This document shows positions 5,749 to 52,454 of a stretch of DNA of 64,000 nt, piece by piece. The translations under genes were made by a program, and so were the position numbers. Within the stretch, counting starts at the first letter, position 1. Each line of letters opens with the position of its first letter. Origin of the DNA: Vibrio hyugaensis. GTDB lineage: Bacteria; Pseudomonadota; Gammaproteobacteria; Enterobacterales; Vibrionaceae. The stretch is taken from positions 1,488,001 to 1,552,000 of the forward strand of contig NZ_CP025794.1 of the NCBI RefSeq assembly GCF_002906655.1. Reading direction: 5' to 3'. Under the pieces are notes generated by a model, which searched no databases, had not been told where the DNA came from, and saw only the letters and a program-made list of their open reading frames with translations.

Positions 5749-6075
5749 AACCTCTAGTTAGATAGTATTAGGTCAAAAATTCGGCGGGGATAGTAGCGGA
5801 TAAAAACCTTAGGTAAAAGACAGTTTTTCTCGAAAAAAATATTAGTATTAAATTTAACACAGTCTTATTTTTGTGATGAATATAACAATTTAAAACACAG
5901 CGTACAGCTACTCAATTAACACAAGAATTTCCCAAATGTACTTACACAAGCCATACACTTGGTGAATTTTTAATCTTTTCAATAAAAATTATTGTTCGTG
6001 ACATTAAGAAGAATGATTAGTGTGATTTTGAACCAGTTGTTACATTGTTGCTAACGTATTCGATAGAGATGGTTT
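5749..6075. other. A/T-rich divergent promoter region, no gene seen
   Basis: This 327-base stretch separates two divergent genes and is A/T-rich. I see no ORF with a ribosome site, no RNA gene and no strong inverted repeat. It presumably holds both promoters. Confidence 0.5.
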
Positions 6076-34064: not shown

Positions 34065-34432
34065 GGGGCTGATTTAGGATTCGACGGGAATTCAGAAGTC
34101 TGAGGTGCATGCCGAGGTGCGGTAGGCCTCGTTAACAAACCGCAAAAAAATAGTCGCAAACGACGAAAACTACGCACTAGCAGCTTAATAACCTGCTCAG
34201 AGCTCTCTCGCCCTAGCTTCCGCACGTAAGACGGGGACCAACGAGGGATCAAACCCAAACGCGCTAGTCCGGATTCTCCCGCCTGAGAGATGAACGACGA
34301 ATTATAATTCAGGATAGTCATTTACTAGCGTGTCGGTTCGCAGGTGGATGGTGAATTTAAAGATCGACTAAGCATGTAGTACCAATGATGAAAGGTTTTC
34401 GGACGCGGGTTCAACTCCCGCCAGCTCCACCA
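34065..34432 (+). ncRNA. ssrA: Transfer-messenger RNA
   Basis: The RNA starts GGGGCTGATTTAGGATTCGA and ends with the acceptor end GCTCCACCA; the TPsiC-like arm GGTTCAACTCCCGCC lies just before. The tag reading frame is 34156-34188, encoding ANDENYALAA and stop. The last 13 bases before the final A (34419-34431) are the attachment site of the genomic island that follows; its insertion left the RNA intact. Confidence 0.98.
34419..34431 (+). other. attL core of the island
   Basis: CGCCAGCTCCACC at the 3' end of ssrA is repeated exactly at 56919-56931. A tyrosine-integrase gene lies 170 bases inside, the normal layout of ssrA-integrated islands. Confidence 0.9.
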
Positions 34433-34598: not shown

Positions 34599-35833
34599 AT
34601 GGCAAGAAAGGCATCATATCTAAGCAACAAAGAAATCAAAGCGGCTAAGCCGAAACTTAAAGAGTACCTGCTCATTGATGTAAATGGTTTACGCCTTAGC
34701 ATTTCACCAAATGGATAAAAGCGCTAGTTGGTAAACTACAAAGACCCTATCACCGAAAAACGTACTAACCTTTCTCTAGGCTCTTATCCTGTGATCGCTT
34801 TAGCAAAAGCCAGAAAGCTCACCATGGAAGTACAAGAACTCATTGAGTTAAGTATCAGCCCTAAAGAACACCGCGACGAAAAGCGACGTCAGAAGCAAAG
34901 TATTTCCGGGCATACTTTTCTCAATGTTACTTCTCAGTGGTTCGAGCTAAAGAAAGACTCCATAACCGATGATTACGCAGTCGATATTTGGCGATCTTTT
35001 AAAAATACCTCTTCCCTAAATTCCAAGACACGCCAATAAAAGATTTAACCGCTCCTGATGTAATAATGGCTTTGAGACCGATTGAAGCTAGAGGAAACCT
35101 TGAAACCGTTAAGAGACTCGCTCAACGAATCAATGAAGTAATGGTTTATGCCGTTAACTGTGGTCTAGTCTTCTCAAACCCTCTTGCAGGCATTAAAGAA
35201 GCATTCAAAAAGCCGAAGAAGCAGCGTATGGCAGCACTAACACCTGAAGAGCTACCTGAACTAATGCTGACGCTTGCCAGTGCTTCAATAAAAAAGTTAC
35301 CCGTTCATTGATTGAGTGGCAACTTCATACAATGTCACGCCCAGCTAAAGCTGCGAGAGCAAAGTGGGAAGAGAGCGATTTAGAGCAGCGTATGGACAAT
35401 TCCACCAGAAAGGATGAAGAAGAACAGAGAACACAGGATTCCACTCACCGACGAAACCATCTCTATTCTCGGGAACTTAAAACCAATTACTGGTCATCGG
35501 GAATACCTATTTCCCTCAGATAGAGACCCGAAAAAGCACTGTAATAGTCAAACGGCAAACATGGCGCTGAAACGAATGGGATTTGCAAATAGACTCGTTA
35601 GTCATGGCTTAAGATCATTGGCGAGCGCTACCTTGAATGAGCAAGGTTTTGAATCTGATTTAATTGAAATGGCGTTAGCTCATGTCGATAAAAACCAAGT
35701 TCGCAGTGCTTACAACCATTAAGACTTTCGAGAACGGCGCAGACCTATGATGAGCTGGTGGAGCAAACATATTGCTGAAGCAGCTCAGGACAACCTTTCG
35801 GTTACCGGCACCAAACAATTCAAAGTCATTTAG
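34599..35833 (+). pseudogene. Tyrosine integrase, degraded
   Basis: The frame starts MARKASYLSNKEIKAAKPK at 34599, the N-terminal arm-binding domain of the DUF4102 (P4/CP4-57) integrase class. Reading on, I meet two in-frame stop codons at about 34716-34728, a frameshift at about 35005, another in an A-run at about 35289-35295, a third near 35390, and a stop at 35719-35721. All segments between fit one integrase, including HGLRSLAS and LAHVDKNQVR of the catalytic domain and the final ERRRPMMSWWSKHIAEAA. It is clearly inactive. Confidence 0.92.
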
Positions 35834-35989: not shown

Positions 35990-36115
35990 ATGGAAAAACA
36001 TGATTGGGATAATTACTCCCGACAGCTAGATCCAGAACACGATGCGTACTGGCAAAGCCGAGGAGGAGAAGAAAGACCTGACGACTGGCAAGAGCAGTTA
36101 GAAGACGGTGAATAA
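35990..36115 (+). CDS. Small acidic protein, 41 residues, unknown
   Basis: An ATG at 35990 opens a 42-codon frame (MEKHDWDNYSRQLDPEHDAY, ending WQEQLEDGE). It is acidic with three tryptophans and no membrane segment. It ends 55 bases before the Thg1-like gene start, so the two could be co-transcribed. I know no family. The upstream ribosome site is weak (AACGGAAAT). Confidence 0.4.
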   Translation: MEKHDWDNYSRQLDPEHDAYWQSRGGEERPDDWQEQLEDGE

Positions 36116-36170: not shown

Positions 36171-36998
36171 ATGTGTATTGCTTCTGAAATAACAACCTTA
36201 TGTGATAAGCACGCTAAATTCAAAGCTATCGAACAACGCTCAGCAAAGATGAGCTCTGTCCCGGAAGACACGTACCTGGTTATTCGGCTAGATGGTATTG
36301 GCTTGAGTAAGAGATGTCTAAAAGACCATCTCGAAAACAAGCTATTTCAAAAAGTAATGTTAAAAGCAGCTCAAGATACATACTACGTAATGAGAAGAAA
36401 AACCCCATCCAACGCGCAGCAGATCTTTTTAGGTGTGCTCATCGCTTCAGATGAAGTTTCTTTTATCTTGAATACCAGCAAGAGTTACCTTGATCATTCA
36501 ATAATGAAGCTAGTAACCACGATAGCATCAACGTTCAGCTGTTTTTTTACAAAAAATGGGCTTGCCCAAGCCCCTCAGACTAAGCTTTCAGGGTCATTTG
36601 ATGGAAGACCTTTAGTGCTCTCAACAACTGAAGAAGTAAAAGAATACGTCGCCTATAGAGCTGCAATTTACAACAGGAATACGATGGCAAAGGCTTTGAG
36701 GTTAAAAGGGGTACCTGACGAAGAGCTGTTCGGCGACAATGAAAATGACACTGAGTATTACTTTGAAAAATACAGAGAGTTAAGGCTTAGCACTGAAGAC
36801 ATAAACAAAGGTTGTATATTCTTATCACCATGCAAAGACAACTCTAAGCTGACGAGTTACCAAAACAAGTCTCTATCTAAGTTTATGTCTCTTTACTCTA
36901 GGCAAATCGACTTCACAGAACAAAACCTCCGCGAGCTTAATAGCTCCACAAGATCAGAGTACGACGATCACAAAGAGTTATCTACAATTCCTTCATAA
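36171..36998 (+). CDS. Thg1-like 3'-5' nucleotidyltransferase
   Basis: A 275-residue protein that I recognise as a tRNA-His guanylyltransferase-like polymerase. The two metal-binding motifs are clear: VIRLDG (D41) and ASDEVSFIL (D94, E95); the segment FDGRPLVLSTTEEVKEYV followed by YRAAIYNRN matches the third conserved region. Such enzymes add nucleotides in the 3'-5' direction to repair tRNA 5' ends or add G-1. The ATG at 36171 follows AAGGAAGAG; a GTG at 36108 is possible. The gene converges on and overlaps (31 bases) the last gene of the minus-strand defence cluster. A role in tRNA repair during phage attack is inference. Confidence 0.82.
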   Translation: MCIASEITTLCDKHAKFKAIEQRSAKMSSVPEDTYLVIRLDGIGLSKRCLKDHLENKLFQKVMLKAAQDTYYVMRRKTPSNAQQIFLGVLIASDEVSFILNTSKSYLDHSIMKLVTTIASTFSCFFTKNGLAQAPQTKLSGSFDGRPLVLSTTEEVKEYVAYRAAIYNRNTMAKALRLKGVPDEELFGDNENDTEYYFEKYRELRLSTEDINKGCIFLSPCKDNSKLTSYQNKSLSKFMSLYSRQIDFTEQNLRELNSSTRSEYDDHKELSTIPS

Positions 36999-38269
36999 CG
37001 TTCGCAGTGGAACTTGTAGTATTCACTGTAAGCACCGAAACATTGCTTCCAGATAGAAAACACATCAACTTCGTCGCCAAACTCTTTATTCACTAATGAG
37101 CTCTTAACCATTAGAGCTCTATCAATCGCAAATACGCTCGAAAATACATCCCCTAACCCATAATCGATTGTTGTTCCTGTTTTAGCTGCAATGACCTGGA
37201 GAAAGTCATTCAACGCATTATGGGACGGTAAATCAATGCTTCTTAACCATTTATATAGCTTATTCTTTTGAGCGATTAACACATCTGCTTCATCGGTAGT
37301 ACCTTCCGAGACTTGGTAAGGAACACAAGAGGCTAAATCCGTGAAAGTAAAATCAATGTCATGTTCCTTAAACCACTCAAGTAAGACTTCCACAAGGCAT
37401 CGAGTCGATGTATGAGAATTATCCTTATGCGTGTACCTTTTTAGTACTTTCGATATCAACCACCTCTTGTCAGTCTTTGGCTCCTCTCCATGGGAAACAA
37501 CATAGTCAACCTCATAAGAAGCTAGCAAATTGAGATAAAATTCATATTCAATATCGAACATACAACGAACCAACACAGAGGTTTGATGCTTGTCCAACTG
37601 ACTTGTATCTAGCTCTTCTTTTACTAGGTCACCGATGAAGTTCAATACTTCTTCATTGATCAGTGAATGTTCTGCATAAAGGGGGGTAACCCAAGAGCCC
37701 CAAGGTGAACTGAGGCTTTTGTTACTATTTCCACCAGCCGAAGCTGCTTTGACACGTTCCAACAATTCAACTTGTTTATTACTCCGCTCGACAATAAATG
37801 AGCTTAGACAACGAAAGTTATTAGATGCTTGAGCGTTTAGAGATTTTGAAAAGCTCAACCATTGAAGGGCGTTAATACTAACCCTACTAGCCCTCTCAAG
37901 CTCCTCATCCTTACCCAAAAGAAAGCGAAGCATTGGGCTCATCAGAGATGCCGCTATTGGCTGCGTAAAAACGCTCATGAACCTTTTGAATACTGACTTC
38001 CCAACACCATTTCGCCCTATTTCATGAAGGGCACTTGAGGATATGTTCGGACGTTTAACTCCAGCCTCTTCCAACCTATCCAGCATAGTAGTCGCATTGT
38101 GCTTTACACCTAATAACTCACAAGCATCTTGCATGGAAGGTAAGAAATAATTCTGCGGACCATGGACAAACTTAAAAGGCCTGTCCTTTGTAATGTCTAG
38201 GCTGGCTCTTACAATTGCAGACTCTAGCTCTTCAAGTTCAGTTTTTATTGGAGCCTGTTTTTCTAACAC
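36968..38269 (-). CDS. Unknown 433-residue protein, last gene of McrBC cluster
   Basis: I do not recognise this protein. It is mostly helical and soluble, with no signal peptide or membrane segment. A helix-turn-helix-like N-terminal stretch (SMQDACELLGVKHNATTMLDRLEEAGV) is followed by a long region without catalytic motifs that I can name. It starts 11 bases after the small membrane protein gene stop, so it is probably co-transcribed with mcrB and mcrC. Its 3' end overlaps the convergent Thg1-like gene. It may be a target-recognition or regulatory partner of McrBC, which is inference from position only. Confidence 0.75.
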   Translation of the reverse strand: MLEKQAPIKTELEELESAIVRASLDITKDRPFKFVHGPQNYFLPSMQDACELLGVKHNATTMLDRLEEAGVKRPNISSSALHEIGRNGVGKSVFKRFMSVFTQPIAASLMSPMLRFLLGKDEELERASRVSINALQWLSFSKSLNAQASNNFRCLSSFIVERSNKQVELLERVKAASAGGNSNKSLSSPWGSWVTPLYAEHSLINEEVLNFIGDLVKEELDTSQLDKHQTSVLVRCMFDIEYEFYLNLLASYEVDYVVSHGEEPKTDKRWLISKVLKRYTHKDNSHTSTRCLVEVLLEWFKEHDIDFTFTDLASCVPYQVSEGTTDEADVLIAQKNKLYKWLRSIDLPSHNALNDFLQVIAAKTGTTIDYGLGDVFSSVFAIDRALMVKSSLVNKEFGDEVDVFSIWKQCFGAYSEYYKFHCERYEGIVDNSL

Positions 38270-38280
38270 AAGTAATTCCT

Positions 38281-38553
38281 TTAATTACTATAAACTCGTC
38301 CGACTTTATAACGTCGCATCCTTGATGATTCCTCATGCATTAACTTGGTCATTCTTTTTTTCTTTAGAAACCAGGAGCACAGTTGGGCTGGCCCCCAAAC
38401 CGGTATGAGAGGGAGTAAAATAAAAAGAATAGAAACTCGCCAAGCTGTGGAATCACTAACCGACACATAAGGAACTCGGAGCTTGAATGGCCGATTAGCT
38501 AACTCCTTATAATGTTGGTACATATCTTCTGGGTGTGGACGTCGTCTTCTCAT
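38281..38553 (-). CDS. Small membrane protein in McrBC cluster
   Basis: A 90-residue protein with a basic start (MRRRRPHPEDMYQHYKEL), one clear hydrophobic segment (about 41-62, VSILFILLPLIPVWGPAQL) and a basic tail (KKKRMTKLMHEESSRMRRY). The ribosome site AGAGGTGA lies three to four bases before the ATG, which supports a real gene. It sits 26 bases after mcrC and 11 before the 433-residue gene. Unknown family; possible membrane effector or anchor in the defence cluster. Confidence 0.65.
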   Translation of the reverse strand: MRRRRPHPEDMYQHYKELANRPFKLRVPYVSVSDSTAWRVSILFILLPLIPVWGPAQLCSWFLKKKRMTKLMHEESSRMRRYKVGRVYSN

Positions 38554-39925: not shown

Positions 39926-41935
39926 CTACTCTTTGTTGTTTGAATACATACCAACATAAGCCTCAGGTTCATCCCATACAGAGCCCTTCTCAAAAGGTCT
40001 AAGGGCATAAGTGACTTTCATATCATCGTATAGGTCTAAGTCATGCTCAGAGCCGAACAAGCTGGCGTACGATTGCTCTATCTTCCTTAGGAAATGAAGA
40101 TTCTTCTGCTCATTTCCTTTCAAACTATCCCCCAACACTAGGCGGATCTTATTCCAATCTTCGAAAAAGTACTCTTCAAGAAGAGGGATTATCTTATTCT
40201 TAAATGCATCTCGAAGAGCTACAAAAGCTTCATCGTTTTTGCCTTGCTTTACCAAGTCATATGCAGGGAACAAGAACGCATGGCCAAGCATGTGTTCACG
40301 ATCATAGAGAACTTCAATACGGGAATTCAGGGCGCTGAGCATGCTCTCGAAATTAATGCTACACCCACCTTGAACAAGCTGGTGGTCACGGAACAAGCTT
40401 GGTTTTGGCATCATTTCTTTAAAATCAAAGCGACGACGTAAAGCAGTGTCCATCATTGCCAGAGAGCGGTCTGCAGTATTCATTGTACCGATGATGTATA
40501 GATTATCTGGCACTGAGAAAGTATCACCAGAATAAGGTAAGGTGACTTCTAGCGGCTCCTGTGCACCTTTGCGCTTAGAAGGTTCAATCAAAGTAATCAG
40601 TTCACCAAAAATTTTTGAGATATTACCTCGATTGATCTCATCGATAACTAACACATAGTTTTGGCGTTTTATCGCAGGCTGTTGCTCGATATCCACTAGC
40701 CCCTTTAAGTAACGAACCAGTGGGTTATAGTAAACACCAAGACCTGTTGAGTATTCCCTTGAGCCTTCAAAGATCTGCTTTAGCGTATTGATGCTAAGAG
40801 TGTGATCTTTCTTACCGTTACTTTTCTCAAAGAAAATGCGCTTTTCATTGAAATCAACAACATGAAAAGAGGTTTGTGACATGTTAATTTCAAGACTGTC
40901 TACTTCTGCTAGCTTTGCTGCGAAAGCTTGCCAACATACCTCAAAGTTGTGGCCTTGTGATGCTGCTTTTTCAGTACTGTGTTTTTCTGCTTCCTTGCAG
41001 ATTTCCCGGAACACCCCTTTCTCGACGTCATAAGAGATATCACCACCCTCAGAATTTGCTTTTAACCCTTCAACAAACTCTTCATAGCCATAGCTTTGAT
41101 GAAAAGTAACAAAGCGAATTTGACCAGTTCTTGTGAGCTCTTTGTATTTTTCCACCAACTTTGTTCGCTGTTCTTCTGATGCGCCACCAGCTTGTTCGCT
41201 AATATTAAGGTTGGCGTAAAACCCTGGTTCTGCAGCTTGAACCGCCGCTTCAATAGTGTGGTAGGTTTTGCCTGTCCCTGGTGGTCCATACAAAATTTGG
41301 TTAAGCGGAGAATTGATTTTGTGATTACTAAATTCCTGGCTCATTTGGCTTTCCTTCTCACTAGCATGCTTAACTCTCAGTTCATCCAAAGTCATCGAGT
41401 AGTATGGTTGGAGGATGCTCTCTTCGAATAGGTTTAAGTCTTGTTTTTGCTGATATACCTTTGCAAGAGTACTGTTGTAGTTTGGTGCCCAACCTTTACT
41501 TGGACCGGAGTACTTTTGTAACTCAGGCAAAGAGCGGACTAACTCATACTTTCGAAACGCCCAACCACTATCTAAAGGAGATTCATCATCGAACAAAGCC
41601 TCTCCACTGACTCGAACCAAGGCCTTTAAATAACCGCTGCGAGAAAGGCTTACGATATCACCAACTTTGACTTCCTTGATAAACCGACTGCCCTGGCTTT
41701 TAGCCGTTTCGCTATGTACAGCTAGGTAGTTATTTTCGTCTAGCCACTGAGATACGCTTTCAGATATTTCGTTGAAGCCATGGGAAACTTTCCAAATACT
41801 AGGGATAGCTTGTAGTGGGTCTTTGTTGACCAGTTTATATCCATGCTTTTCAAAAAACCTCTCAGCGTCAGAGGTGTGACACTTACTGTGGTGAACATCA
41901 AAAACCACACTGTAGAGTCTTTTTGCTGGATACAA
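39926..41935 (-). CDS. mcrB: McrB-family GTPase, 5' end probably frameshifted
   Basis: A 669-residue frame from a TTG codon. It has an N-terminal DNA-reading part, with a PUA/EVE-like segment (VGDIVSLSRSGYLKALVRVS, 91-110), then the AAA+ motor: Walker A GPPGTGKT (217-224), Walker B VIDEINRGNISKIFGEL and the McrB GTP signature MNTADRS. The TTG start looks wrong: upstream in the next frame an ATG at 42038 with AGAGG six bases before it starts MDVSKRSIEDAVAQLKQDSYY, and removing one A from the A-run at 41970-41974 joins it to FHHFVEIEGNLYPAKRL. The intact gene would therefore start at 42038. Confidence 0.88.
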   Translation of the reverse strand: MYPAKRLYSVVFDVHHSKCHTSDAERFFEKHGYKLVNKDPLQAIPSIWKVSHGFNEISESVSQWLDENNYLAVHSETAKSQGSRFIKEVKVGDIVSLSRSGYLKALVRVSGEALFDDESPLDSGWAFRKYELVRSLPELQKYSGPSKGWAPNYNSTLAKVYQQKQDLNLFEESILQPYYSMTLDELRVKHASEKESQMSQEFSNHKINSPLNQILYGPPGTGKTYHTIEAAVQAAEPGFYANLNISEQAGGASEEQRTKLVEKYKELTRTGQIRFVTFHQSYGYEEFVEGLKANSEGGDISYDVEKGVFREICKEAEKHSTEKAASQGHNFEVCWQAFAAKLAEVDSLEINMSQTSFHVVDFNEKRIFFEKSNGKKDHTLSINTLKQIFEGSREYSTGLGVYYNPLVRYLKGLVDIEQQPAIKRQNYVLVIDEINRGNISKIFGELITLIEPSKRKGAQEPLEVTLPYSGDTFSVPDNLYIIGTMNTADRSLAMMDTALRRRFDFKEMMPKPSLFRDHQLVQGGCSINFESMLSALNSRIEVLYDREHMLGHAFLFPAYDLVKQGKNDEAFVALRDAFKNKIIPLLEEYFFEDWNKIRLVLGDSLKGNEQKNLHFLRKIEQSYASLFGSEHDLDLYDDMKVTYALRPFEKGSVWDEPEAYVGMYSNNKE

Positions 41936-42132: not shown

Positions 42133-43902
42133 TTAAAGCTCTTGTCCGCCTGCACTTTCAAAAAAGGCATAAGTTTCATCAAATAGCGACTCTTGAGGGA
42201 AGAATAAAATCACTCCATCTCTACCCCTAGTCATCAAAACGCGATAACTATTAAGCTTTATTTGATAGGGATCTCTTACATTTCGCTTCGATTTGTGAAG
42301 TTGCCATCCTTTCCCATCAAAAAGAAAATCATCAGCCCAAACAAGAATCGGCATATCAAGCTCTAAACCTTGGCACTTAAATTCATCAATGGTCCGCTCA
42401 AATCGACAACACGATTTTGGAGCACTCACATCATCATGAAACCATGGACCAACAGATTCTTCAGTGTACTTAGTATTACTGGAAGAACTTAGTAACCCAT
42501 ACTTCTTGGCAGTGCCTTGGTACCTAGTTCGGCAATACCTTTTAGCTTTTTCCAAATCTCTCGTCACATAGATATTGAATCCATTTTTAATAGCCTGCTT
42601 TGCTAAATCATCATCGGACTGCCCTCTTAATACTCCATCAACCCAGTTAGGGTATAAATTTGCACTGTGAGAACGTAAAGATTGATCAAGATTAAGCAAT
42701 GGGTTCATTCTAACTCTCTCACTGCTTAAGAAATTAAAATGATGCTTCAGCGTTGGCGGGCAAAAGATTAACCAAGGTTTACAGCTCTCTTTGAGTGCAT
42801 CACACCATAAAGAGATACCAACTTCTTCACCGGTATGTATTTCTTGTCCTTCCCCTATCAGGGCAACATAGTGACAAGGTTTAGGGTCTTTATCGGCAAT
42901 ATGAATAATGCAAGAAGGCTCAGACATCTGGTAATTTTTGTTTTTCTGTTCATCCCACATCCTCTGAGCTTCATCAAAAACAATCAAATTCGTGTGGGGC
43001 TTACTACCTTGTTTCATATATTGGCGTTTGAAGTCCTTTAAGGCGCGAACAAACGTTTTATTTTTTAGAGCGTGCTGCAATACATCGACTAAAGGGCCGT
43101 TCCCAGATAGAAACTGGCCTGTTTTGTTTCGATGAACAAACTCAAGGCCTAGTAATGTCTTACCAGCACCAGGAACACCAGTTACCAGGGTTAGTACATT
43201 GGCTTTATTTCGATTCCCCGCGCCTTCGACCCACTCAGTAACCTTGTCTAGCTCATTCAGCGCGTCATATATTCCTGCACTTTTGGCACTTTTCAGCTCG
43301 TCTATTGGGTTGTCATTAAATATTTCGACCGCCGCATCAACTAGGTTTGGTAACGGTACATACGCGGATTCAAGCCATGATTTCAATTCAGTACAGGTTG
43401 GAGCCCCGGTTAGATGCTTATCTAAGAAAGCTCTCAACTTATCGCTAGATAGAATAGAAATATCGCTTTCGATTTCAGCTAGCTTACTGGTGGATTGAGT
43501 TAAAACCAAACCGGCAATCACATCTAACTTTGCACTTTCATGATGATAATTACAGATATCTCGATAGTAACCACACAACTGATCATAATCGGCCCGTTGG
43601 TAACCATCTTTCATTTTAAATTCTAAAATGAACAGCTTGTTCTCGATAAGCAACAGGACATCTGGCCGACGCCCTCCTTCCATAGGCAGGACATATTCAA
43701 AGATTATATAACCGTCAGAAAGAGTACACTTGGACAGCTCTACTTGAAGGTGTTTAAAGCAATCGGCCCAAGCTCGCTTTTGAAGATCTCCAAGCTCTAA
43801 ACCTGGGAAATTACTCTCAAACTCAGAGCTCATTTGAGTTAACCATTGCTCTTCTTGCACTTGAAGAAAGGCACCAATCTTATCGGCATAACAATGTGTC
43901 AT
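42133..43902 (-). CDS. PD-(D/E)xK nuclease fused to DUF2075 helicase
   Basis: A 589-residue two-part protein. Residues 75-100 hold a restriction-nuclease-like site, RRPDVLLL (D81) and FILEFK (E94, K96). The second part is a superfamily 1-like ATPase of the DUF2075 family with GVPGAGKT (242-249), VFDEAQRMW (309-316) and a late arginine motif (VLMTRGRDGVI). Such proteins are often found with type I restriction genes. It begins 12 bases after the NUDIX gene, in one transcription unit. Confidence 0.88.
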   Translation of the reverse strand: MTHCYADKIGAFLQVQEEQWLTQMSSEFESNFPGLELGDLQKRAWADCFKHLQVELSKCTLSDGYIIFEYVLPMEGGRRPDVLLLIENKLFILEFKMKDGYQRADYDQLCGYYRDICNYHHESAKLDVIAGLVLTQSTSKLAEIESDISILSSDKLRAFLDKHLTGAPTCTELKSWLESAYVPLPNLVDAAVEIFNDNPIDELKSAKSAGIYDALNELDKVTEWVEGAGNRNKANVLTLVTGVPGAGKTLLGLEFVHRNKTGQFLSGNGPLVDVLQHALKNKTFVRALKDFKRQYMKQGSKPHTNLIVFDEAQRMWDEQKNKNYQMSEPSCIIHIADKDPKPCHYVALIGEGQEIHTGEEVGISLWCDALKESCKPWLIFCPPTLKHHFNFLSSERVRMNPLLNLDQSLRSHSANLYPNWVDGVLRGQSDDDLAKQAIKNGFNIYVTRDLEKAKRYCRTRYQGTAKKYGLLSSSSNTKYTEESVGPWFHDDVSAPKSCCRFERTIDEFKCQGLELDMPILVWADDFLFDGKGWQLHKSKRNVRDPYQIKLNSYRVLMTRGRDGVILFFPQESLFDETYAFFESAGGQEL

Positions 43903-43914
43903 TGAAGTGCCCTC

Positions 43915-44310
43915 TCAGTTTCTAAGAAGCTTTTCAACGATAGGAACATCAGCTTCAGCCCAATCTAGAGAAGGCAGTTCTTCGCGATTTAACCACTGAG
44001 CATCAATGTGTTCAGTAAGTACAATCTTTCTATTCTCTACCGGGCATAGATACGCGTGCATAGTGATGTGAAAATCAGGGTAAGTATGCTCAACCGTCAT
44101 AAAATAATCGACATGCTCAACACTTAAATGCAGTTCTTCCTTCAACTCCCTTTTTATCGCACATTCACGAGACTCACCTACCTCGACCTTACCTCCTGGG
44201 AACTCAAACTTTTCATGAATATAAGCCAGTTTCGAGGGGCCACGTTGAACACATAAAGTTATACCTTCATGTTGAATAACGGCTGCCACTACTTCAATCT
44301 TTTTAGCCAA
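43915..44310 (-). CDS. NUDIX hydrolase (MutT-like)
   Basis: A 131-residue NUDIX pyrophosphatase. The NUDIX box runs GGKVEVGESRECAIKRELKE (39-58) with EEL following, and fits GX5EX7REUXEEXGU. The N-terminal VAAVIQHEGITLCVQR resembles 8-oxo-dGTPase MutT. It is 12 bases after hsdR and 12 before the nuclease-helicase gene. A housekeeping mutT should exist elsewhere, so this copy probably serves the defence cluster, for instance by acting on a nucleotide signal or damaged dNTP; inference. Confidence 0.9.
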   Translation of the reverse strand: MAKKIEVVAAVIQHEGITLCVQRGPSKLAYIHEKFEFPGGKVEVGESRECAIKRELKEELHLSVEHVDYFMTVEHTYPDFHITMHAYLCPVENRKIVLTEHIDAQWLNREELPSLDWAEADVPIVEKLLRN

Positions 44311-44322
44311 ACGGACTTCCTT

Positions 44323-47300
44323 TTAACTATTCTTCTTATAATTCTCAGCCTGCTCTAGCACGCCTTTATAAACATCATCATTTGCGATTGGCGGGAAGCC
44401 GAACCTGTGCAGAAGCAGAATCAGGTCTACCTTAAGCTTGGCTTTGATATCATCCCGCCCCGCCCAATCTGGGTACTGGGCAACGTCATCGACAATCACT
44501 TTCATCTCTTTGGCAAGCTCTAGCATCTTGTCGTCTTCGTATTCAAATTCATACTTGGTGCGCATGTGCTCCAAGATATCGAGGAAAGCTTTCTCTTCCA
44601 TGTCGATGCCAAGGTCTACGAACGAGGAGAGTTCAGTCACCATCTCGCTCATTAGAGAAGTCATCTCTTTGATGATCCCTTCAAACATCTCATCCACGAA
44701 TGGCTCGAACTCCTCACCTCGTAGTTCGTTACCTTCACGGCGCTCGTTGTATTGGTCCACCAGCGATTGTAAGCGCTTGGAGAAGTCGACACCTTTGAGC
44801 TGGTTTACCTTTTTAAAGTCACTAATGGCTTTGCCTAGCAGCTTTTGGAGCAACTGGATTTTGGTATGAGGCAGTTTAAGCTTTAGAACACGTTCCATGT
44901 ACTCGTCATCGAAGATATCGATAGACTCAGCTTGCTCTTCACCGATAGTGAAAATTTCTTCTACGCCTTCAGCACGTAACGCTTCTGCCACTAATTCGCG
45001 AACATGCTTGTTCATTTGTGCCGTGTCTGGCGCATCACCTTTGGTCAGCTTGTAAATGATTGACCGAACAGCAATGTAGAAATGAATCAAGTCACGTTCT
45101 TGCTTAGAAAGCGACTCGCTACCACAACATACGTCATAAGCCGCCTTTAAACGCTTCACTAAGCCCATGAAGCGGTGTTCACTCTTCTTGTTCACCAAGA
45201 CAAACTCTGCGGCAAGATTTAAGCACTCAAGCTGCAATCTAGGTTCGCCACTAAAGTATCCGGAACGGTCAAAGTTATGGAACATCTTACCCAGTAGGTC
45301 GATGTGATTCTTAACCTCCACTACCGAGAGTTGCACATCCTCAAAGTTGCTTTCATCGGCCTTTGAGTACATCGCAAGTGCTTGGTTCATTCGAGACTTG
45401 ATGCCGATATAGTCAACGACCAAACCTTTGTCTTTGCCTTCAAACTTACGATTTACACGTGAGATAGTTTGAATCAAGTTGTGCTTTTGTAGTGGTTTAT
45501 CGATATAGATGGTGTCGAGCTCTGGTACATCAAACCCCGTTAGCCACATATCCACGACTATCGCGATCTTAAAGTTAGATTTCGGAGTTTTAAACTGAGC
45601 ATCTAGTGACTTGCGGTAATCTTTGGTTCCGAGTAACTTGTAAAGCTCATCTTCATCGTTACTGCCACGAGTCATCACCATTTGTACCATTGCCAAAGGC
45701 AGGGTCTCTTTAGCTTCTTGCTCAGTTAAGGTTTCACCCTCTAGGCATTTTTTAACTTCGAACCACTCAGGGCGAAGTCGCTTCACTTGTTTGTAAAAGT
45801 CGTAGGCAATTTCACGGCTGGCACACACAAACATTGCCTTACCTTTTACTGTCGACCCCTCCGCGACACGCTCTTCATAATGGGCAACAAAGTCTTTGGC
45901 TAATGCTTCCAAGCGGTCTTCATCACCTAAGATGGCATTCATGTTGGCAGAGGCTTTTTTGCTCTCTTCAATCTGATGCTCACTAGCGCCTGCCTCAGCA
46001 CATTTCTCATAGTACTTCTCGACTTCTTGCAGCTTACTGTTATCGAGAATAACCTTTGCCGCTCTGCCCTCGTACACAATGCGTACCGTGATTTCATCAT
46101 TCACAGACTCCGCCATTGTGTAGCTGTCTACAGGGTTACCGAACACATCTAACGTGGCATCAATTGGCGTACCTGTGAAGCCGACATACGTTGCACTAGG
46201 CAATGAGTCATGAAGATACTTAGCAAAGCCGTAGCTCTCTTTTACATCAACAGCGACACCATCTTTGTATTGCAGTGTGACCTTTTTATCGAGATTGACT
46301 TGAGAGCGGTGCGCCTCATCCGAGATACAAATAATGTTGGTACGGTTAGAAAGTACTTCTATATCTTCAGTGAACTTGTGGATGGTAGTGAGGAACACAC
46401 CACCACTTTTTATTCCTTGGAGTTTGTCACGAAGGTCTTGTCGGCTCGTGACAGAAACCACCATCTCGTCACCGATATAATCACTGGCATTGCAGAACTG
46501 TTCAGAGAGCTGAGCATCTAGGTCGGTACGGTCAGTAATAAGAACAAGGGTTGGGCTTTCAAAATCAACGCTCTTCATTAACAAGCGAGACAAAAACTGC
46601 ATGGTGTAGCTCTTACCACAACCTGTCGCCCCAAAATAAGTACCACCTTTACCGCTACCCCATGGCTTACGCTCTTTGTCGATGTTGTAATAAAGCTTAC
46701 GAGCGGCGTAGTACTGAGGATAACGACAACACACTTTCACTTCTTTCTTCGAGGTATCAGGGAAGAAGATGAAGTTTTTCAACACGTCTAACAATCGAGT
46801 TTTATCAAACAGACCCGATATCATGGTATAGAGCGAATTGATGCCTTGTTTCTCAGTGGACTCGTTGCCAGTCACCTTGCGCCAAGCGTAGTAGAAGTCA
46901 TAAGGGGCAAAGGCGTTACCCATTTTGTTGTTTACGCCATCGCTAATAATCGTCAGGGCGTTAAACACAAACAATTTAGGAATAGCACGCTTATAGCGGA
47001 TGTGGATTTGTTCCCACGCATCATAGATGGTCGCTTGCTCTTCACGTACAGCGCTTTTGAATTCAAACAGGACTAGCGGTAAACCGTTAATGTAGAGAAT
47101 GCCATCAGGGATACGTTCTTCATCACCATTTTCAATCTTCAATTGATTTACGACTTTGTAGATGTTTTGGTCTACAGGTTCGAAGTAACTGAGCCGATCT
47201 TCTGCGACTTTTGGCTCAGCAGATTGTGCTTTGTCTTCCAGAAGAGGCACAAACATTAATCGCAGTGCTTGTGCCAAGTGTTTGGTGTCTATCAGCTCAA

Positions 47301-47619
47301 CATAGAGGTCTTTCTTGGAGCGGTCTTCACGCTTAAGTAGAAAACCATTAGCAAGCCAATCACAAAACGTCTTGTTGCTTTCGTATAAGTCACTAGCAGG
47401 TAGGCGATTAAGCTGGTGGACGATTTGGTCAATCTCACCTTCGGTAATGTCGTCCGCTTGATATTGCTTGGTAAGGTAAGTGCGTAAGTCATCAAGAAGC
47501 AGCACCTGTTCTGTATCTTCACGGGCTATTTGCTCACCAACGACATGCGGATAACCTTGCTCGCCCAATAACTCAATGATGGCTTGTTCGAGTTTGGCTT
47601 CAGTAAATTTTAAGCTCAT
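44323..47619 (-). CDS. hsdR: Type I restriction endonuclease, R subunit
   Basis: A 1098-residue motor-nuclease. The nuclease site is in IPDGILYINGLPLVLFEFKSA-type sequence (P171-D172, E186-x-K188). The superfamily 2 motor has GATGCGKS (330-337), DEAH (434-437) and later the VDMWLTGFDVPELDTIY and QTISRVNR motifs. Length is normal. With HsdM and HsdS it forms the R2M2S complex. It is separated from hsdS by the SWIM gene, an unusual but known arrangement. Confidence 0.96.
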   Translation of the reverse strand: MSLKFTEAKLEQAIIELLGEQGYPHVVGEQIAREDTEQVLLLDDLRTYLTKQYQADDITEGEIDQIVHQLNRLPASDLYESNKTFCDWLANGFLLKREDRSKKDLYVELIDTKHLAQALRLMFVPLLEDKAQSAEPKVAEDRLSYFEPVDQNIYKVVNQLKIENGDEERIPDGILYINGLPLVLFEFKSAVREEQATIYDAWEQIHIRYKRAIPKLFVFNALTIISDGVNNKMGNAFAPYDFYYAWRKVTGNESTEKQGINSLYTMISGLFDKTRLLDVLKNFIFFPDTSKKEVKVCCRYPQYYAARKLYYNIDKERKPWGSGKGGTYFGATGCGKSYTMQFLSRLLMKSVDFESPTLVLITDRTDLDAQLSEQFCNASDYIGDEMVVSVTSRQDLRDKLQGIKSGGVFLTTIHKFTEDIEVLSNRTNIICISDEAHRSQVNLDKKVTLQYKDGVAVDVKESYGFAKYLHDSLPSATYVGFTGTPIDATLDVFGNPVDSYTMAESVNDEITVRIVYEGRAAKVILDNSKLQEVEKYYEKCAEAGASEHQIEESKKASANMNAILGDEDRLEALAKDFVAHYEERVAEGSTVKGKAMFVCASREIAYDFYKQVKRLRPEWFEVKKCLEGETLTEQEAKETLPLAMVQMVMTRGSNDEDELYKLLGTKDYRKSLDAQFKTPKSNFKIAIVVDMWLTGFDVPELDTIYIDKPLQKHNLIQTISRVNRKFEGKDKGLVVDYIGIKSRMNQALAMYSKADESNFEDVQLSVVEVKNHIDLLGKMFHNFDRSGYFSGEPRLQLECLNLAAEFVLVNKKSEHRFMGLVKRLKAAYDVCCGSESLSKQERDLIHFYIAVRSIIYKLTKGDAPDTAQMNKHVRELVAEALRAEGVEEIFTIGEEQAESIDIFDDEYMERVLKLKLPHTKIQLLQKLLGKAISDFKKVNQLKGVDFSKRLQSLVDQYNERREGNELRGEEFEPFVDEMFEGIIKEMTSLMSEMVTELSSFVDLGIDMEEKAFLDILEHMRTKYEFEYEDDKMLELAKEMKVIVDDVAQYPDWAGRDDIKAKLKVDLILLLHRFGFPPIANDDVYKGVLEQAENYKKNS

Positions 47620-47647
47620 GGTTTAAGGCGCTCCCTACATCAAAAGG

Positions 47648-49339
47648 TTACAAATGGGCGGCATAGTGCTGCTTGAACAGCTTTAACATATTACGCTTGC
47701 GCTTATAGGTGCTTGCTAGCTCTGCCACTTCACTATAAAACTGTGCTTTCTGTTTATCGTGTGGCTCAAGCAGCGATTCGGCTTTTCTCAACAATTCGAT
47801 AGCAGAGGTATAAGCGTCATTATTGGTTTGTTCTATATAAACAGTAACGACTCGCAAATAGTAACTTAGCGTGTTATCGGGCTTTTTATCGACCACTGCA
47901 TCAGCAAGCTTTAGCAACACATTGGTCGAAACTTTACGTGTTGACACCCAGTCACACGCTTCGCTTAACTGATGGTTATCCATATAGAACAGCACCAAGG
48001 CATCCATCACATCAGACAACGAAAAAGATTGGCTTGGTGGCTGATAAGCCTTCTTAAAGATGCGCTCAACACGAGTAAGAAATTCATCATCCTCAACTTG
48101 ATAGTTTTGTTTAAACTTCGCTAAGCGTTGGTAACGTTGAAAGCTTGGCAGTTGTTCTAACTTTCGGTTGGCTAACATCCACGCTGAATGGATTTCACCC
48201 AGCTCTACATAAAGGCGGAACTGAGCCTCATCACAGGCGTTAAGCTCATACTGACTGGCGTTCTTTCTTGCTTTTGCGAGCCAATATTCGGCTTCTAACG
48301 GCTCGTGGTTATCAATAAACATATCAACAACCTCAAGGTAATCACGGTGCGTTCGCGCAATTTTTTGCTTGATCGCCACCACTTCACGCCAATCAGAACT
48401 TTGTTCAATCAGTGGCATCGCCCATGATCGCAGGTTCCAACCACTTTCATCCTGTGAAGCTTGTTCAATTGCTTGGCGGCATAAATTGAGGAAACAGGTG
48501 TTGGTTTGCCAAAGCGATTTAAAATGCTCTTCAATAGAGGGAAACACATCAAACTCATAATGGGTTAAGCGTTCAAACATCCACTCTGCTTTCGCCTGTT
48601 CGCTCCAATTCAGTTTTGCCAAAATAGCAGGCATGTGGGTATTAATCAGCGCTTCAATATCAAGCCGATCACCACTCGAATCATCAATATACTCAAGCAC
48701 TTTATTCAGGCGCTGCACTAAATATTGGATGAGCTTCCATTGTTGATCCGCTTCTAAGCTTTGCATCGACTCAACAATCATACTGAGTTGTTCATGTGCT
48801 GAATGGAAATAAGCGGAACTTTCGCGCCAATCCCAGATCTCCTCGCGAGGAAGAGCTTGAGTAACGAGTTTTTTTAATTCGCTGTATACGGCCGGCTTTT
48901 CACGTATTTCAATTTTTGTGAGCAGTGCATTCCATGCGTATTCATCCTCTTCGAGGTAATCAAGCAGCATCTCTAACGTGGCCTCTTCACCGAGACTTTG
49001 CAGATGTTTTTTGATTATCTTCCGCTCACTTTGTTGATCAGCCAGAAGATCTTGGTCTTGAAGAATCATGGCAAGCGCAACGGCATGCTTACAGACGTTT
49101 TGATACTGAGCTGCAGGGCAATCACACGTCGCTGACAGTGACGTGGAGCAATCAAGGCTAACGTGATAGTCATAACTGCCTCTTACTATGGCATTGGCGG
49201 TATGCTTTTCGACAATGACGTTACGCACTGCACCATTGCGGGCGAGCTGTATCCCCTTTTGTAAGGTCGCGGTTTCACACATGGACATCAACTCAGGTAA
49301 TTGAGGCCATTCAATGCCTGTCGAGAGGTGTTTATTCAT
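47648..49339 (-). CDS. SWIM zinc finger protein inside the hsd operon
   Basis: A 563-residue protein with a SWIM zinc site, C72-x-C74-x8-C83-x-H85 (CDCPAAQYQNVCKH), followed by a long helical, repeat-like region similar to TPR or HEAT modules. SWIM domains bind DNA or proteins. It starts from ATG at 49339 with AGGAAACG before it and ends 28 bases before hsdR. Proteins of this type are found with type I systems and other defence genes; the biochemical role is not known. Confidence 0.85.
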   Translation of the reverse strand: MNKHLSTGIEWPQLPELMSMCETATLQKGIQLARNGAVRNVIVEKHTANAIVRGSYDYHVSLDCSTSLSATCDCPAAQYQNVCKHAVALAMILQDQDLLADQQSERKIIKKHLQSLGEEATLEMLLDYLEEDEYAWNALLTKIEIREKPAVYSELKKLVTQALPREEIWDWRESSAYFHSAHEQLSMIVESMQSLEADQQWKLIQYLVQRLNKVLEYIDDSSGDRLDIEALINTHMPAILAKLNWSEQAKAEWMFERLTHYEFDVFPSIEEHFKSLWQTNTCFLNLCRQAIEQASQDESGWNLRSWAMPLIEQSSDWREVVAIKQKIARTHRDYLEVVDMFIDNHEPLEAEYWLAKARKNASQYELNACDEAQFRLYVELGEIHSAWMLANRKLEQLPSFQRYQRLAKFKQNYQVEDDEFLTRVERIFKKAYQPPSQSFSLSDVMDALVLFYMDNHQLSEACDWVSTRKVSTNVLLKLADAVVDKKPDNTLSYYLRVVTVYIEQTNNDAYTSAIELLRKAESLLEPHDKQKAQFYSEVAELASTYKRKRNMLKLFKQHYAAHL

Positions 49340-49351
49340 ACTCGTTTCCTT

Positions 49352-49540
49352 TACTTCACCAATGCTTTGGCTTGCTCTACTTCAGATGCTCATTCCCTTC
49401 GTTATCTCAGAACCTTCCACTTCCGTCATCTCAGAACCGAGGGACGAGGCATCTGAGATCTCGCTTTTCGTTCGCATTACCGCATTAAAAGCGAGATTCC
49501 GGATAAGTTCGTTCCTCACTTTCCGGAATGACGATACGGG
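49352..49540. repeat. REP-like insertion and duplicated hsdS 3' end
   Basis: Between hsdS and the SWIM gene lies a non-coding block. On the minus strand its last part (49352-49387) encodes SEVEQAKALVK and stop, nearly the same as the true HsdS C-terminus SPEVEQAKALVD at 49542-49583. The piece between (about 49390-49536) is repeat-like, with TCTCAGAACC twice, AAAGCGAGAT / ATCTCGCTTT inverted, and TCCGGA motifs. It looks like an extragenic repeat inserted at, or left by exchange of, the hsdS end. Confidence 0.7.
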
Positions 49541-50860
49541 TTAGTCCACTAGCGCTTTGGCTTGCTCAACTTCCGGAGAATCAAGGCGCAATTCGCCCGA
49601 GATTAGCTTTGGAAGCAGTGTGTCACGGAGTTTTGTTAACACATCAACCTCAGAAGCAATCAATGACATTTTTTCTATGGTTGGTAGTACATTCATCTCA
49701 AATTGCCTTTGAATATCAGAAGATCCAATTACAACCTGCTGATTTCCGAAGTCACCTTTCCTGAAAAACTCACGGGCGCTTCCTGATGCTAACCCTTGAT
49801 TTTTTAACACCAAATTGTCGAGCATGTGCTTAATAAAACTCTGGGAGGCAATGCTCTTATCCTTTGCCCGAAAACACCACATGTTTTGATTACGCAACGC
49901 TGGCAAATGATGCTCGAAAATCAAAGCACATTTCCCAACACTAGCTCCAACCATGACCAAATGATAATCAAGGGGCTTACAAAGATACTTACTATGACTA
50001 TCTAAAAACTTATCCGGTAGGAATACGTCATCATGTGCCTTTTTAACTTGGTTTTCAGAAAAATTCTTAGTTCTCAAAACAAAATTTCCAGACGTCACAT
50101 AGTCTTTACTTTTAAAAGCAAATCCATTGAGAATGTCAGATATTTCACTAACGCTTGTTACGCTCCACCCCTTAGGCACCCAACCCAACCCACTCTCTTC
50201 AAATTCACTTGGGAATAGCTGACGTACATCATCAGGCAGTGGCTTAAAATCCGCACTTTCACGCACGGCTTTACGGCGCTCAACACGGGCTTCAAATACC
50301 TCTGGAATGTAACTGCCAGCATCAAGGGCGTTATCAATCACAGGGTCAAAATCGACAAACCAAGATTTAAACAACGTTTGCGCCATTTGCTCTAGGGTTT
50401 GGTTAATTTGGTTGTTTAGAGAAATCTTTTTATCAAATGCTCTCAATTGGCTTGCTAGCCTATTTTGATACTTAGGGCATACAGGAACACGCACCTTCGC
50501 CTTATGAAGATGATTTCGGTTGATTCCGGGAACAGCAGCTTTGTCGGTATAATCTTTATATGGAATAGTCTTCAAAAAATAATAGATAAATAGAGGGTCA
50601 TTACCTTTAAAGTCTCTTACATACAATGTTGTATTTAGAGGCCAAAAGTTATCTTCAACATAAAATACTTGACCAATAGTTCCATATCGACCAGTTACAA
50701 CACCTGGTGCAGAAACTTTATATTCATTGTGTTCTCCAGACTCTCCAGAGGAGGAAATAACGGGAACAACACCGTCCTCTCTTTTCGTCTTTGGTAAATC
50801 GTAGCCACGTTTGAGCTCTAATACATCTCCAAGCTCACACTCTTTCCACTCACTCCCCAT
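49541..50860 (-). CDS. hsdS: Type I restriction specificity subunit
   Basis: A 439-residue S subunit with two target-recognition domains (about 1-140 and 225-385), each followed by a conserved helical spacer (LNNQINQTLEQMAQTLFKSWFVDFDP; FEMNVLPTIEKMSLIASEVDVLTKLRDTLLPKLISGEL). It determines the asymmetric DNA target. The first codons overlap the hsdM 3' end by 11 bases. A second, diverged copy of its last codons lies downstream, hinting at past replacement of the gene. Confidence 0.94.
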   Translation of the reverse strand: MGSEWKECELGDVLELKRGYDLPKTKREDGVVPVISSSGESGEHNEYKVSAPGVVTGRYGTIGQVFYVEDNFWPLNTTLYVRDFKGNDPLFIYYFLKTIPYKDYTDKAAVPGINRNHLHKAKVRVPVCPKYQNRLASQLRAFDKKISLNNQINQTLEQMAQTLFKSWFVDFDPVIDNALDAGSYIPEVFEARVERRKAVRESADFKPLPDDVRQLFPSEFEESGLGWVPKGWSVTSVSEISDILNGFAFKSKDYVTSGNFVLRTKNFSENQVKKAHDDVFLPDKFLDSHSKYLCKPLDYHLVMVGASVGKCALIFEHHLPALRNQNMWCFRAKDKSIASQSFIKHMLDNLVLKNQGLASGSAREFFRKGDFGNQQVVIGSSDIQRQFEMNVLPTIEKMSLIASEVDVLTKLRDTLLPKLISGELRLDSPEVEQAKALVD

Positions 50861-52454
50861 AACCCAATGCCTCCAAGTTACTGCGAATTGCTTTATCTAG
50901 CGCTTCGGCTTGGTTCATTTGGCTATATAGAGTTTGGGATAGCTCACGCATCTTGGTTTCAAACGGAATACCATCATCTTCAACTTCAGCAGCCCCCACG
51001 TAGCGCCCCGGAGTAAGTACAAAGTCATTAGCTTTGATCTCATCGAAATTCGCTTGCTTACAAAAACCAGCAACGTCTTGGTATTGTTCAACTTTGCAGT
51101 CGCCACGCTCTACACGAGCTTTTAGCTCGACTTCATCACTGCGCCATGCGTGGTAAGTATCCGCAATAAGAGCAATATCATCTTTGGTCAGCTCTTTATG
51201 TACACGGCTGGTCATAGTGCCCATTTCACGTGCATCAATAAACAGCGTCTCTTTTTCACGCTGGCGGTAGCCTTTCGAAGTATTGGCTTGCTTGTTCTTA
51301 GTGATAAACCAGATACAAACTGGGATTTGGGTTGAGTAGAACAGCTGACCCGGTAAGGCGATCATACATTCCACCACATCGTTCTCGATAAGCTGTTGGC
51401 GGATCTCACCTTCACCAGAAGTGTTTGAGCTCATTGAGCCGTTTGCCAATACAAAACCTGCTGTGCCTGTTTCGCTTAACTTAGACAGCATGTGCAGAAT
51501 CCAACCGTAGTTGGCGTTACCTGTTGGCGGTGTGCGGTAGCCAGAGAAGCGAGGATCTTTAGTTAGCTCGTTCTCATCACGCCATTGGCTGATGTTGAAC
51601 GGTGGGTTCGCCATAATGTAATCGGCTTTAAGGTCTTTGTGTTGGTCTGCAAAGAAGGTATCCGCTGGGCGCTCACCCAAGTTGCCTGATAAGCCGCGAA
51701 TGGCTAAGTTCATCTTGGCTAGCTTGTAGGTGGTTGACGTCAGTTCCTGACCGTAAATTGCGATGTCTTTGGTACGGCCTTCATGTTGTTTAACGAACTT
51801 CAAAGACTGAACGAACATACCGCCCGAGCCACAGGCAGGGTCATAAATTTTGCCTTGGAATGGCTCTAGCATTTCTGTAAGTAGGGTTACGACAGACTTT
51901 GGCGTATAAAACTCACCGCCTCCCTTACCTTCGGTTGCAGCAAACTTACCAAGGAAGTATTCGTAAACTCGACCGACGAGATCTTCTTCGCTCATGTCAC
52001 ATTCATTGGCGAGCGTGCCGATGTTCTCGATGGTATCGATCAGTGACGCAAGCTTTTTCACTTCTAGGTCTTGGCGAGAGAAGTAGTTGTCTGGCAATGC
52101 ACCTTTTAAGCTTGGGTTGGCTTTTTCAATATTAGACAAAGCGGTATCGATGATGACTGCAATGTTGTCTTGCTTAGCGTGCTTTTTCACGTATGACCAA
52201 CGAGAAGCTTCTTCTAGGTAGAAAATGTTGTCTTGTTGGTAAAACTCTTTCATTTCAACAAAAGCTTCTTGCCCTTCGTCGATCATCTGTTGGCGACGTG
52301 ATTCGAATTTATCGCTAATGAATTTAAGGAACACAAGGCTTAATACAACGTGCTTGTATTCTGATGATTCAACGCTGCCGCGCAGCTGGTTGGCGGTATC
52401 CCAAAGGGTTTCTTCAAAACCTTTTGCAGGTTTCTTTGCTGGTGCTTTTGCCAT
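50850..52454 (-). CDS. hsdM: Type I restriction methyltransferase subunit
   Basis: A 534-residue N6-adenine methyltransferase. The N-terminal HsdM helical domain (LWDTANQLRGSVESSEYKHVVLSLVFLKFIS-like) leads to the SAM motif DPACGSGGMF (205-214) and the catalytic NPPF (283-286). It is the first gene of the long minus-strand defence cluster, with a possible promoter region 52455-52634. Confidence 0.96.
   Translation of the reverse strand: MAKAPAKKPAKGFEETLWDTANQLRGSVESSEYKHVVLSLVFLKFISDKFESRRQQMIDEGQEAFVEMKEFYQQDNIFYLEEASRWSYVKKHAKQDNIAVIIDTALSNIEKANPSLKGALPDNYFSRQDLEVKKLASLIDTIENIGTLANECDMSEEDLVGRVYEYFLGKFAATEGKGGGEFYTPKSVVTLLTEMLEPFQGKIYDPACGSGGMFVQSLKFVKQHEGRTKDIAIYGQELTSTTYKLAKMNLAIRGLSGNLGERPADTFFADQHKDLKADYIMANPPFNISQWRDENELTKDPRFSGYRTPPTGNANYGWILHMLSKLSETGTAGFVLANGSMSSNTSGEGEIRQQLIENDVVECMIALPGQLFYSTQIPVCIWFITKNKQANTSKGYRQREKETLFIDAREMGTMTSRVHKELTKDDIALIADTYHAWRSDEVELKARVERGDCKVEQYQDVAGFCKQANFDEIKANDFVLTPGRYVGAAEVEDDGIPFETKMRELSQTLYSQMNQAEALDKAIRSNLEALGYGE

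Follow-up and report, generated by a model that had tools for sequence, protein, structure and literature searches.

A divergent branch of the Thg1/Thg1-like protein (TLP) family, borne by genomic islands, is represented by a gene of Vibrio hyugaensis located in contig NZ_CP025794.1, positions 1,488,001 to 1,552,000; this whole stretch of 64,000 nucleotides is referred to below as the window. The gene (36171..36998, plus strand) encodes a 275-amino-acid (aa) member of the Thg1-like 3'-5' polymerase family. The protein is rare, retains the fold and conserved residues of the family and belongs to a small conserved gene module in an island. That it is a catalytically competent enzyme repairing RNA 5' ends in conflict with phages or mobile elements is given an even chance here.

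The Thg1-like protein

The open reading frame (ORF) is open and stops at 36998. It starts with an ATG at 36171, preceded by an AAGGAAG stretch; a GTG at 36108 is a less likely alternative start. A preliminary description of this DNA had identified a Thg1-like protein from the metal motifs VIRLDG (aa 37-42, 36279-36296) and SDEVSF (aa 93-98, 36447-36464), and this identification was borne out by a PF04446 (Thg1) match (E 1.5e-11, 44.8 bits, curated cut-off 29.2), the sole Thg1 match in the genome. All 32 PDB chains matched by Foldseek at E <= 0.001 were Thg1 or TLP structures, and both the palm and the C-terminal helical domain of the fold were present. Cas10 and GGDEF chains were weak Foldseek matches (E about 0.1-0.2), and neither occurred in the high-Z rows of the structural alignment; one EAL/GGDEF domain protein scored 5.2 there. 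The Thg1C region (PF14413) was not matched by Pfam in the three branch members scanned, and its fold was present in the structural alignment; the single classic TLP scanned did match PF14413. None of the PADLOC families matched the protein at E 0.01.

The catalytic residues were found intact. Across all 18 aligned sequences (13 branch members and 5 classic TLPs), E21, R39, D41, G42, D94, E95, K113, F143, D144, R163 and R169 were invariant, and the FDxR arginine was present in 17 of the 18, being a lysine in Photobacterium lucens. The invariant set probably includes counterparts of the BtTLP residues with reported roles (E12, R28, D30, D75, E76, K99 and R147; PMC3701042), a mapping made with BtTLP itself outside the alignment. 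BtTLP (PDB 4kgm, 4kgk) and other bacterial and archaeal TLPs share with the window protein the fold, the metal-binding carboxylates, the conserved basic residues and the lack of the HINNLYN motif. Identity to the TLP chains in the structural alignment was 15-19%, and the loop after RxDG is rewritten.

Phylogeny and distribution

In an unrooted IQ-TREE analysis (LG+G4, 18 sequences), the four classic bacterial TLPs and one viral-contig TLP were split from the window branch by very long edges with a support of 100, and the window protein grouped with its P. lucens homologue (support 99). The viral contig, the lone one found, fell among the classic TLPs. Members of the branch came from P. lucens, Amphritea atlantica, an Enterovibrio metagenome-assembled genome (MAG), a gammaproteobacterial MAG, Moritella sp. 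PE36, two deltaproteobacterial-type MAGs, and Arcobacter and Aliarcobacter plasmids. Scans of genome contigs and viral contigs gave no relative with a single-sequence query, and 7 and 1, respectively, with an alignment query; scans of whole collections used short patterns and missed distant members.

Thg1 was rare in every sample. It occurred in 5 of 329 Vibrionaceae genomes (four of the window branch and one classic, G059), in 4 of 369 genomes of a class-wide sample (two of the window branch and two classic) and in 5 of 394 genomes of an order-wide sample searched with a branch profile, one of these being classic. The branch differs from classic TLPs in the Thg1C region unseen by Pfam, in that no kinase neighbour was found, and in the lack of a phage-collection match: two queries from the window branch matched none of 50,697 phage records, whereas a classic TLP query matched 117 of them at E 0.01. 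Phage-encoded Thg1 proteins (PMC7824862; in the collection, Bacillus phage G and others) are of the same family, with a possible RNA-repair role in phage-host conflict.

A conserved module and its mini-ORFs

A 41-aa acidic small ORF (35990..36115, plus strand) lies 55 bp upstream of the Thg1-like gene in the window, and the gene for a 433-aa uncharacterised protein (36968..38269, minus strand) lies tail-to-tail with it, with an overlap of 31 bp. In P. lucens the small ORF is 78% identical and in the equivalent position, and the Thg1-like gene is also tail-to-tail with the gene of a 434-aa protein related to the 433-aa one (28% identity, 432 positions); the module is placed there between hsdS and hsdR, relatives of the window's Hsd proteins. 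The 41-aa ORF, the Thg1-like gene and the convergent gene of about 433 aa form a conserved module, described here for the first time.

The 433-aa family was found in 4 of 329 Vibrionaceae genomes, and its sole further match in the class-wide sample of 369 was weak, partial and interrupted. In three of the four genomes it adjoins restriction genes, namely in the window, in P. lucens and on a plasmid of Photobacterium, where its neighbours are Vsr, an EcoRII-type endonuclease and a C5 methylase; photolyase-related and CoiA-like genes adjoin the remaining member. The protein had no Pfam or NCBIfam match at E 0.01 and one weak PADLOC match (CARF4-PDDEXK, E 0.0012), and a structure model from two sequences was poor (predicted local distance difference test, pLDDT, 51). 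No relative was found in viral contigs, nor on plasmids with the window protein as query. A 530-aa neighbour in Arcobacter was considered as a relative and rejected, the similarity not being significant.

Near the two 433-family members without Thg1, another mini-ORF of 27-28 aa with a GRDNNPPK motif was present on the opposite strand. Its coordinates are 7312-7395 in L025, 4680-4766 in L026 and 5851-5934 in L087, and it was also matched on Acinetobacter and Comamonas plasmids, in Comamonas close to an annotated restriction endonuclease. The 41-aa ORF itself belongs to a family of rare acidic proteins of about 41 aa with the pattern QLNP..AYWxSRG..ERPxDW (beyond the window, L012 4749-4874, L078 5995-6126, L079 6001-6120 and L087 around 5936-6031). 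It was found in 4 of 192 Vibrionaceae, two of which have it adjoining Thg1; one of the others is followed by a GRDNNPPK mini-ORF that is itself tail-to-tail with a gene resembling, by eye, the TIR type, and one partial match is near a gene that by eye resembles type I restriction. Of 72,556 plasmids, two carried the family; in both it is tail-to-tail with the gene of a 398-aa protein, and no Thg1 annotation lies in the vicinity. Among the 13 branch loci a copy was present at two (on contig L013 the upstream sequence is just 160 bp long), and in Arcobacter an ORF of 42 aa, different from it, precedes the Thg1-like gene. The 41-aa family stands beside defence-type cassettes with or without Thg1. 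From these few cases, the mini-ORFs seem to be markers of such cassettes, one of which would hold the Thg1-like gene.

Defence genes around the homologues

Defence genes were labelled throughout with PADLOC and Pfam models. Eleven independent branch loci were scored over a 5 kb span (contigs L014, L015 and L017 end sooner); the Aliarcobacter plasmid, on which no defence gene was recognised, was merged with Arcobacter. A known or candidate defence gene was present within 5 kb at seven of the 11. These neighbours were McrBC in the window; type I restriction-modification in P. lucens; PDC-S14, an HNH restriction-type endonuclease and Lit in Amphritea, where the locus lies behind tRNA-Ala and, by eye, an integrase; an N6/N4 methyltransferase and a DpnII endonuclease in the WB1 MAG; Shedu SduA, adjoining the Thg1-like gene and split by an insertion element, in G726; PDC-M68B pieces on the Arcobacter plasmid; and, more weakly, a KAP NTPase in the Enterovibrio MAG that matched PifA (E 1.9e-14) by its N-terminus only.

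As a control, 14 random regions of the study genomes (136 proteins) were scanned with PADLOC at E <= 1e-12, with 25 of the 26 matched families listed; E1-E2, typeIV_DinG, mad2 and mad3 were among the matches listed. These were read by us as housekeeping homologues, hence as 0 of 14 regions with real defence genes, and the difference from the branch loci (7 of 11) gave a Fisher p of 0.0007 (0.0016 without the window).

Other features of these loci were also recorded. The split SduA (L040 9785-12199) consists of pieces matching profile positions 10-109 and 105-395. The Moritella Thg1-like gene is directly followed by a gene for an NYN nuclease that has LOTUS-like domains and, below the Pfam cut-off, cold-shock domains (L018 10863-11813). 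Two distant genomes encode, close to the Thg1-like gene, a transporter-like protein recognised by eye (L015 58-1401 and L016 4361-5680; 44% identity, 431 aa).

The island in V. hyugaensis

The island starts directly after a tmRNA gene (34065..34432, plus strand), from its position the likely integration site, and a decayed tyrosine integrase in three separate pieces (34728..35722, plus strand). The far border was not located, because the tmRNA 3' end has a single copy in the window (23-mer, <=3 mismatches) and, as an exact 16-mer, one copy in the whole genome. As described earlier, the Thg1-like gene faces a restriction/McrBC cluster: it converges on the 433-aa gene, which ends a minus-strand array. 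From that gene the array continues with a 90-aa ORF of no assigned function, possibly membrane by eye (38281..38553), McrC-like (McrBC PF10117; 38580..39920), McrB-like AAA protein (39926..41935), a Schlafen group 3 helicase protein (PADLOC PDC-S41; 42133..43902), a Nudix protein (PDC-S07; 43915..44310), the type I restriction protein HsdR (44323..47619), a SWIM-domain protein (PDC-S62; 47648..49339), the specificity protein HsdS (49541..50860) and the methyltransferase HsdM (50850..52454). Positions 42133-52454 form a composite type I array, in which the hsd genes stand amid the Schlafen, Nudix and SWIM genes, all PADLOC candidates, and which adjoins McrBC.

Proposed function and rival explanations

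In the proposed mechanism the Thg1-like enzyme would use ATP or GTP to activate an RNA end bearing a 5'-monophosphate and would then extend it in the 3'-to-5' direction, with tRNA-like stems as the probable substrate. The gene would travel as cargo of integrated islands, and the most likely use of the enzyme would be the repair or rebuilding of RNA 5' ends amid phage or mobile-element conflict; in V. hyugaensis and P. lucens its probable partners would be the 41-aa protein and the 433-aa product of the convergent gene. For viral Thg1 copies, a part in repairing RNA against host defences has been raised (PMC2904730), and what bacterial Thg1-like enzymes act on in nature is described as unsettled (PMC6471195). 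In open-access literature (titles and abstract starts), no paper linking bacterial Thg1 with defence islands was found.

The preliminary description suggested that tRNA cleavage might be counteracted; repair of cleavage caused by the neighbouring systems was not supported. Those systems are annotated as acting on DNA or proteins, and with two kinase queries no polynucleotide kinase was found in the 13 loci, RNA ligases not having been searched for. Cleavage leaving 5'-OH ends would require a kinase (PMC2904730), and as none was found near the branch, reversal of tRNA cleavage is possible but unsupported. Thg1-polynucleotide kinase operons, built on the same polymerase superfamily, are reported in PMC2904730, where the kinase is the most persistent neighbour of bacterial Thg1 (Anantharaman et al. 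2010). A kinase adjoins three of the four classic bacterial TLP loci; two of its copies, which served as the kinase queries, were scanned with Pfam and matched AAA_33. At one classic locus (L037 5044-6883) the genes for the TLP, a kinase and a protein resembling histidyl-tRNA synthetase stand in a row and may form an operon for tRNA-His repair.

Several findings weigh against RNA 5'-end repair in conflict as the role of the branch. The activating lysine (K43 in BtTLP) has no certain counterpart, the candidate K51 being a lysine in 12 of 13 branch members and an arginine in one. No kinase was detected in any of the 13 branch loci (tblastn, two kinase queries, E <= 1), although a very divergent one could be missed, and the evidence for the conserved module comes from two genomes. 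Four of the 11 loci (L007, L017, L018 and L039) had no recognised defence gene; their neighbours were mostly covered by a pooled PADLOC scan with 25 of 191 families listed, in which weaker matches may hide. If four random regions are counted as defence, the comparison becomes 6 of 10 against 4 of 14 (p 0.13). Finally, 16 hand-picked regions at island-type integrases in five study genomes (147 proteins) were also defence-rich. They matched 144 families, the 25 listed including Septu, PD-Lambda-1 and type I and II methyltransferases; the matches could not be assigned to individual regions, and an estimate by eye of 5-8 of 16 regions with defence genes gave p 0.10-0.38 against the branch loci. 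The association of homologues with defence genes, anticipated in the preliminary description, is therefore clear against random loci, on our reading of the matches, and is real but weak: no excess over islands in general was demonstrated, and it may be island background, since integrase-anchored regions are likewise rich in such genes.

The same figures, with the four loci lacking a recognised defence gene, favour an active TLP-type enzyme without a defence role, an accessory RNA-repair cargo that stands among defence genes only since islands gather them. This is a possibility of some substance, if a doubtful one. Against it, the small ORF and 433-aa gene adjoin restriction genes together with Thg1 in two genera, and the defence neighbours vary among distant genera. 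A toxic effector is decidedly improbable. Such an enzyme would place extra 5' nucleotides (e.g. G-1) on tRNAs, halting translation or altering tRNA identity, and would be restrained by the 41-aa protein; it would act on ordinary 5'-phosphate ends, since no kinase neighbour was found. The intact active site, the acidic small ORF upstream in two genera and the different 42-aa ORF in Arcobacter are consistent with this; against it, a copy of the 41-aa ORF was found at only two of the 13 branch loci.

The palm fold is common to GGDEF, Cas10 and mCpol (PMC12657218, PMC2904730), and with the unmatched Thg1C this could point to an enzyme making nucleotide second messengers. mCpol (Panoptes OptS; PMC12657218) is, as here, an RRM-type palm in a defence setting, a minimal polymerase making nucleotide signals. 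The window protein, unlike mCpol, retains the entire Thg1 fold and the Thg1-family residues, and no CARF- or SAVED-type effector was recognised alongside, apart from the weak CARF match of the 433-aa protein, so that this explanation is very unlikely. Least probable of all, and rejected as a role in tRNA-His maturation, is the G-1 guanylyltransferase of eukaryotes that the family name suggests. Both tRNA-His genes found in the genome encode G-1 (a G directly before GTGGCTA) and C73 before CCA, so that G-1 addition is unneeded here; HINNLYN, a eukaryote-specific Thg1 motif (PMC6471195), is replaced by YNRNTMA in the window protein, and the branch was found in only four of 329 Vibrionaceae genomes.

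Significance

A bolder reading, considered improbable, is a previously unnamed anti-phage module of the 41-aa acidic protein, the divergent reverse RNA polymerase and the restriction-associated protein of about 433 aa. On infection the polymerase would add nucleotides to the 5' ends of host or phage tRNAs, or replace those present, as an immune effector or as a host-saving RNA-repair arm; if so, bacterial islands would carry the window branch and phages the classic TLP branch. The recurrent mini-ORFs beside defence cassettes may serve as a marker in themselves. An island-borne branch apart from the RNA-repair kinase would offer a defined small module for probing backward RNA synthesis in phage conflict.
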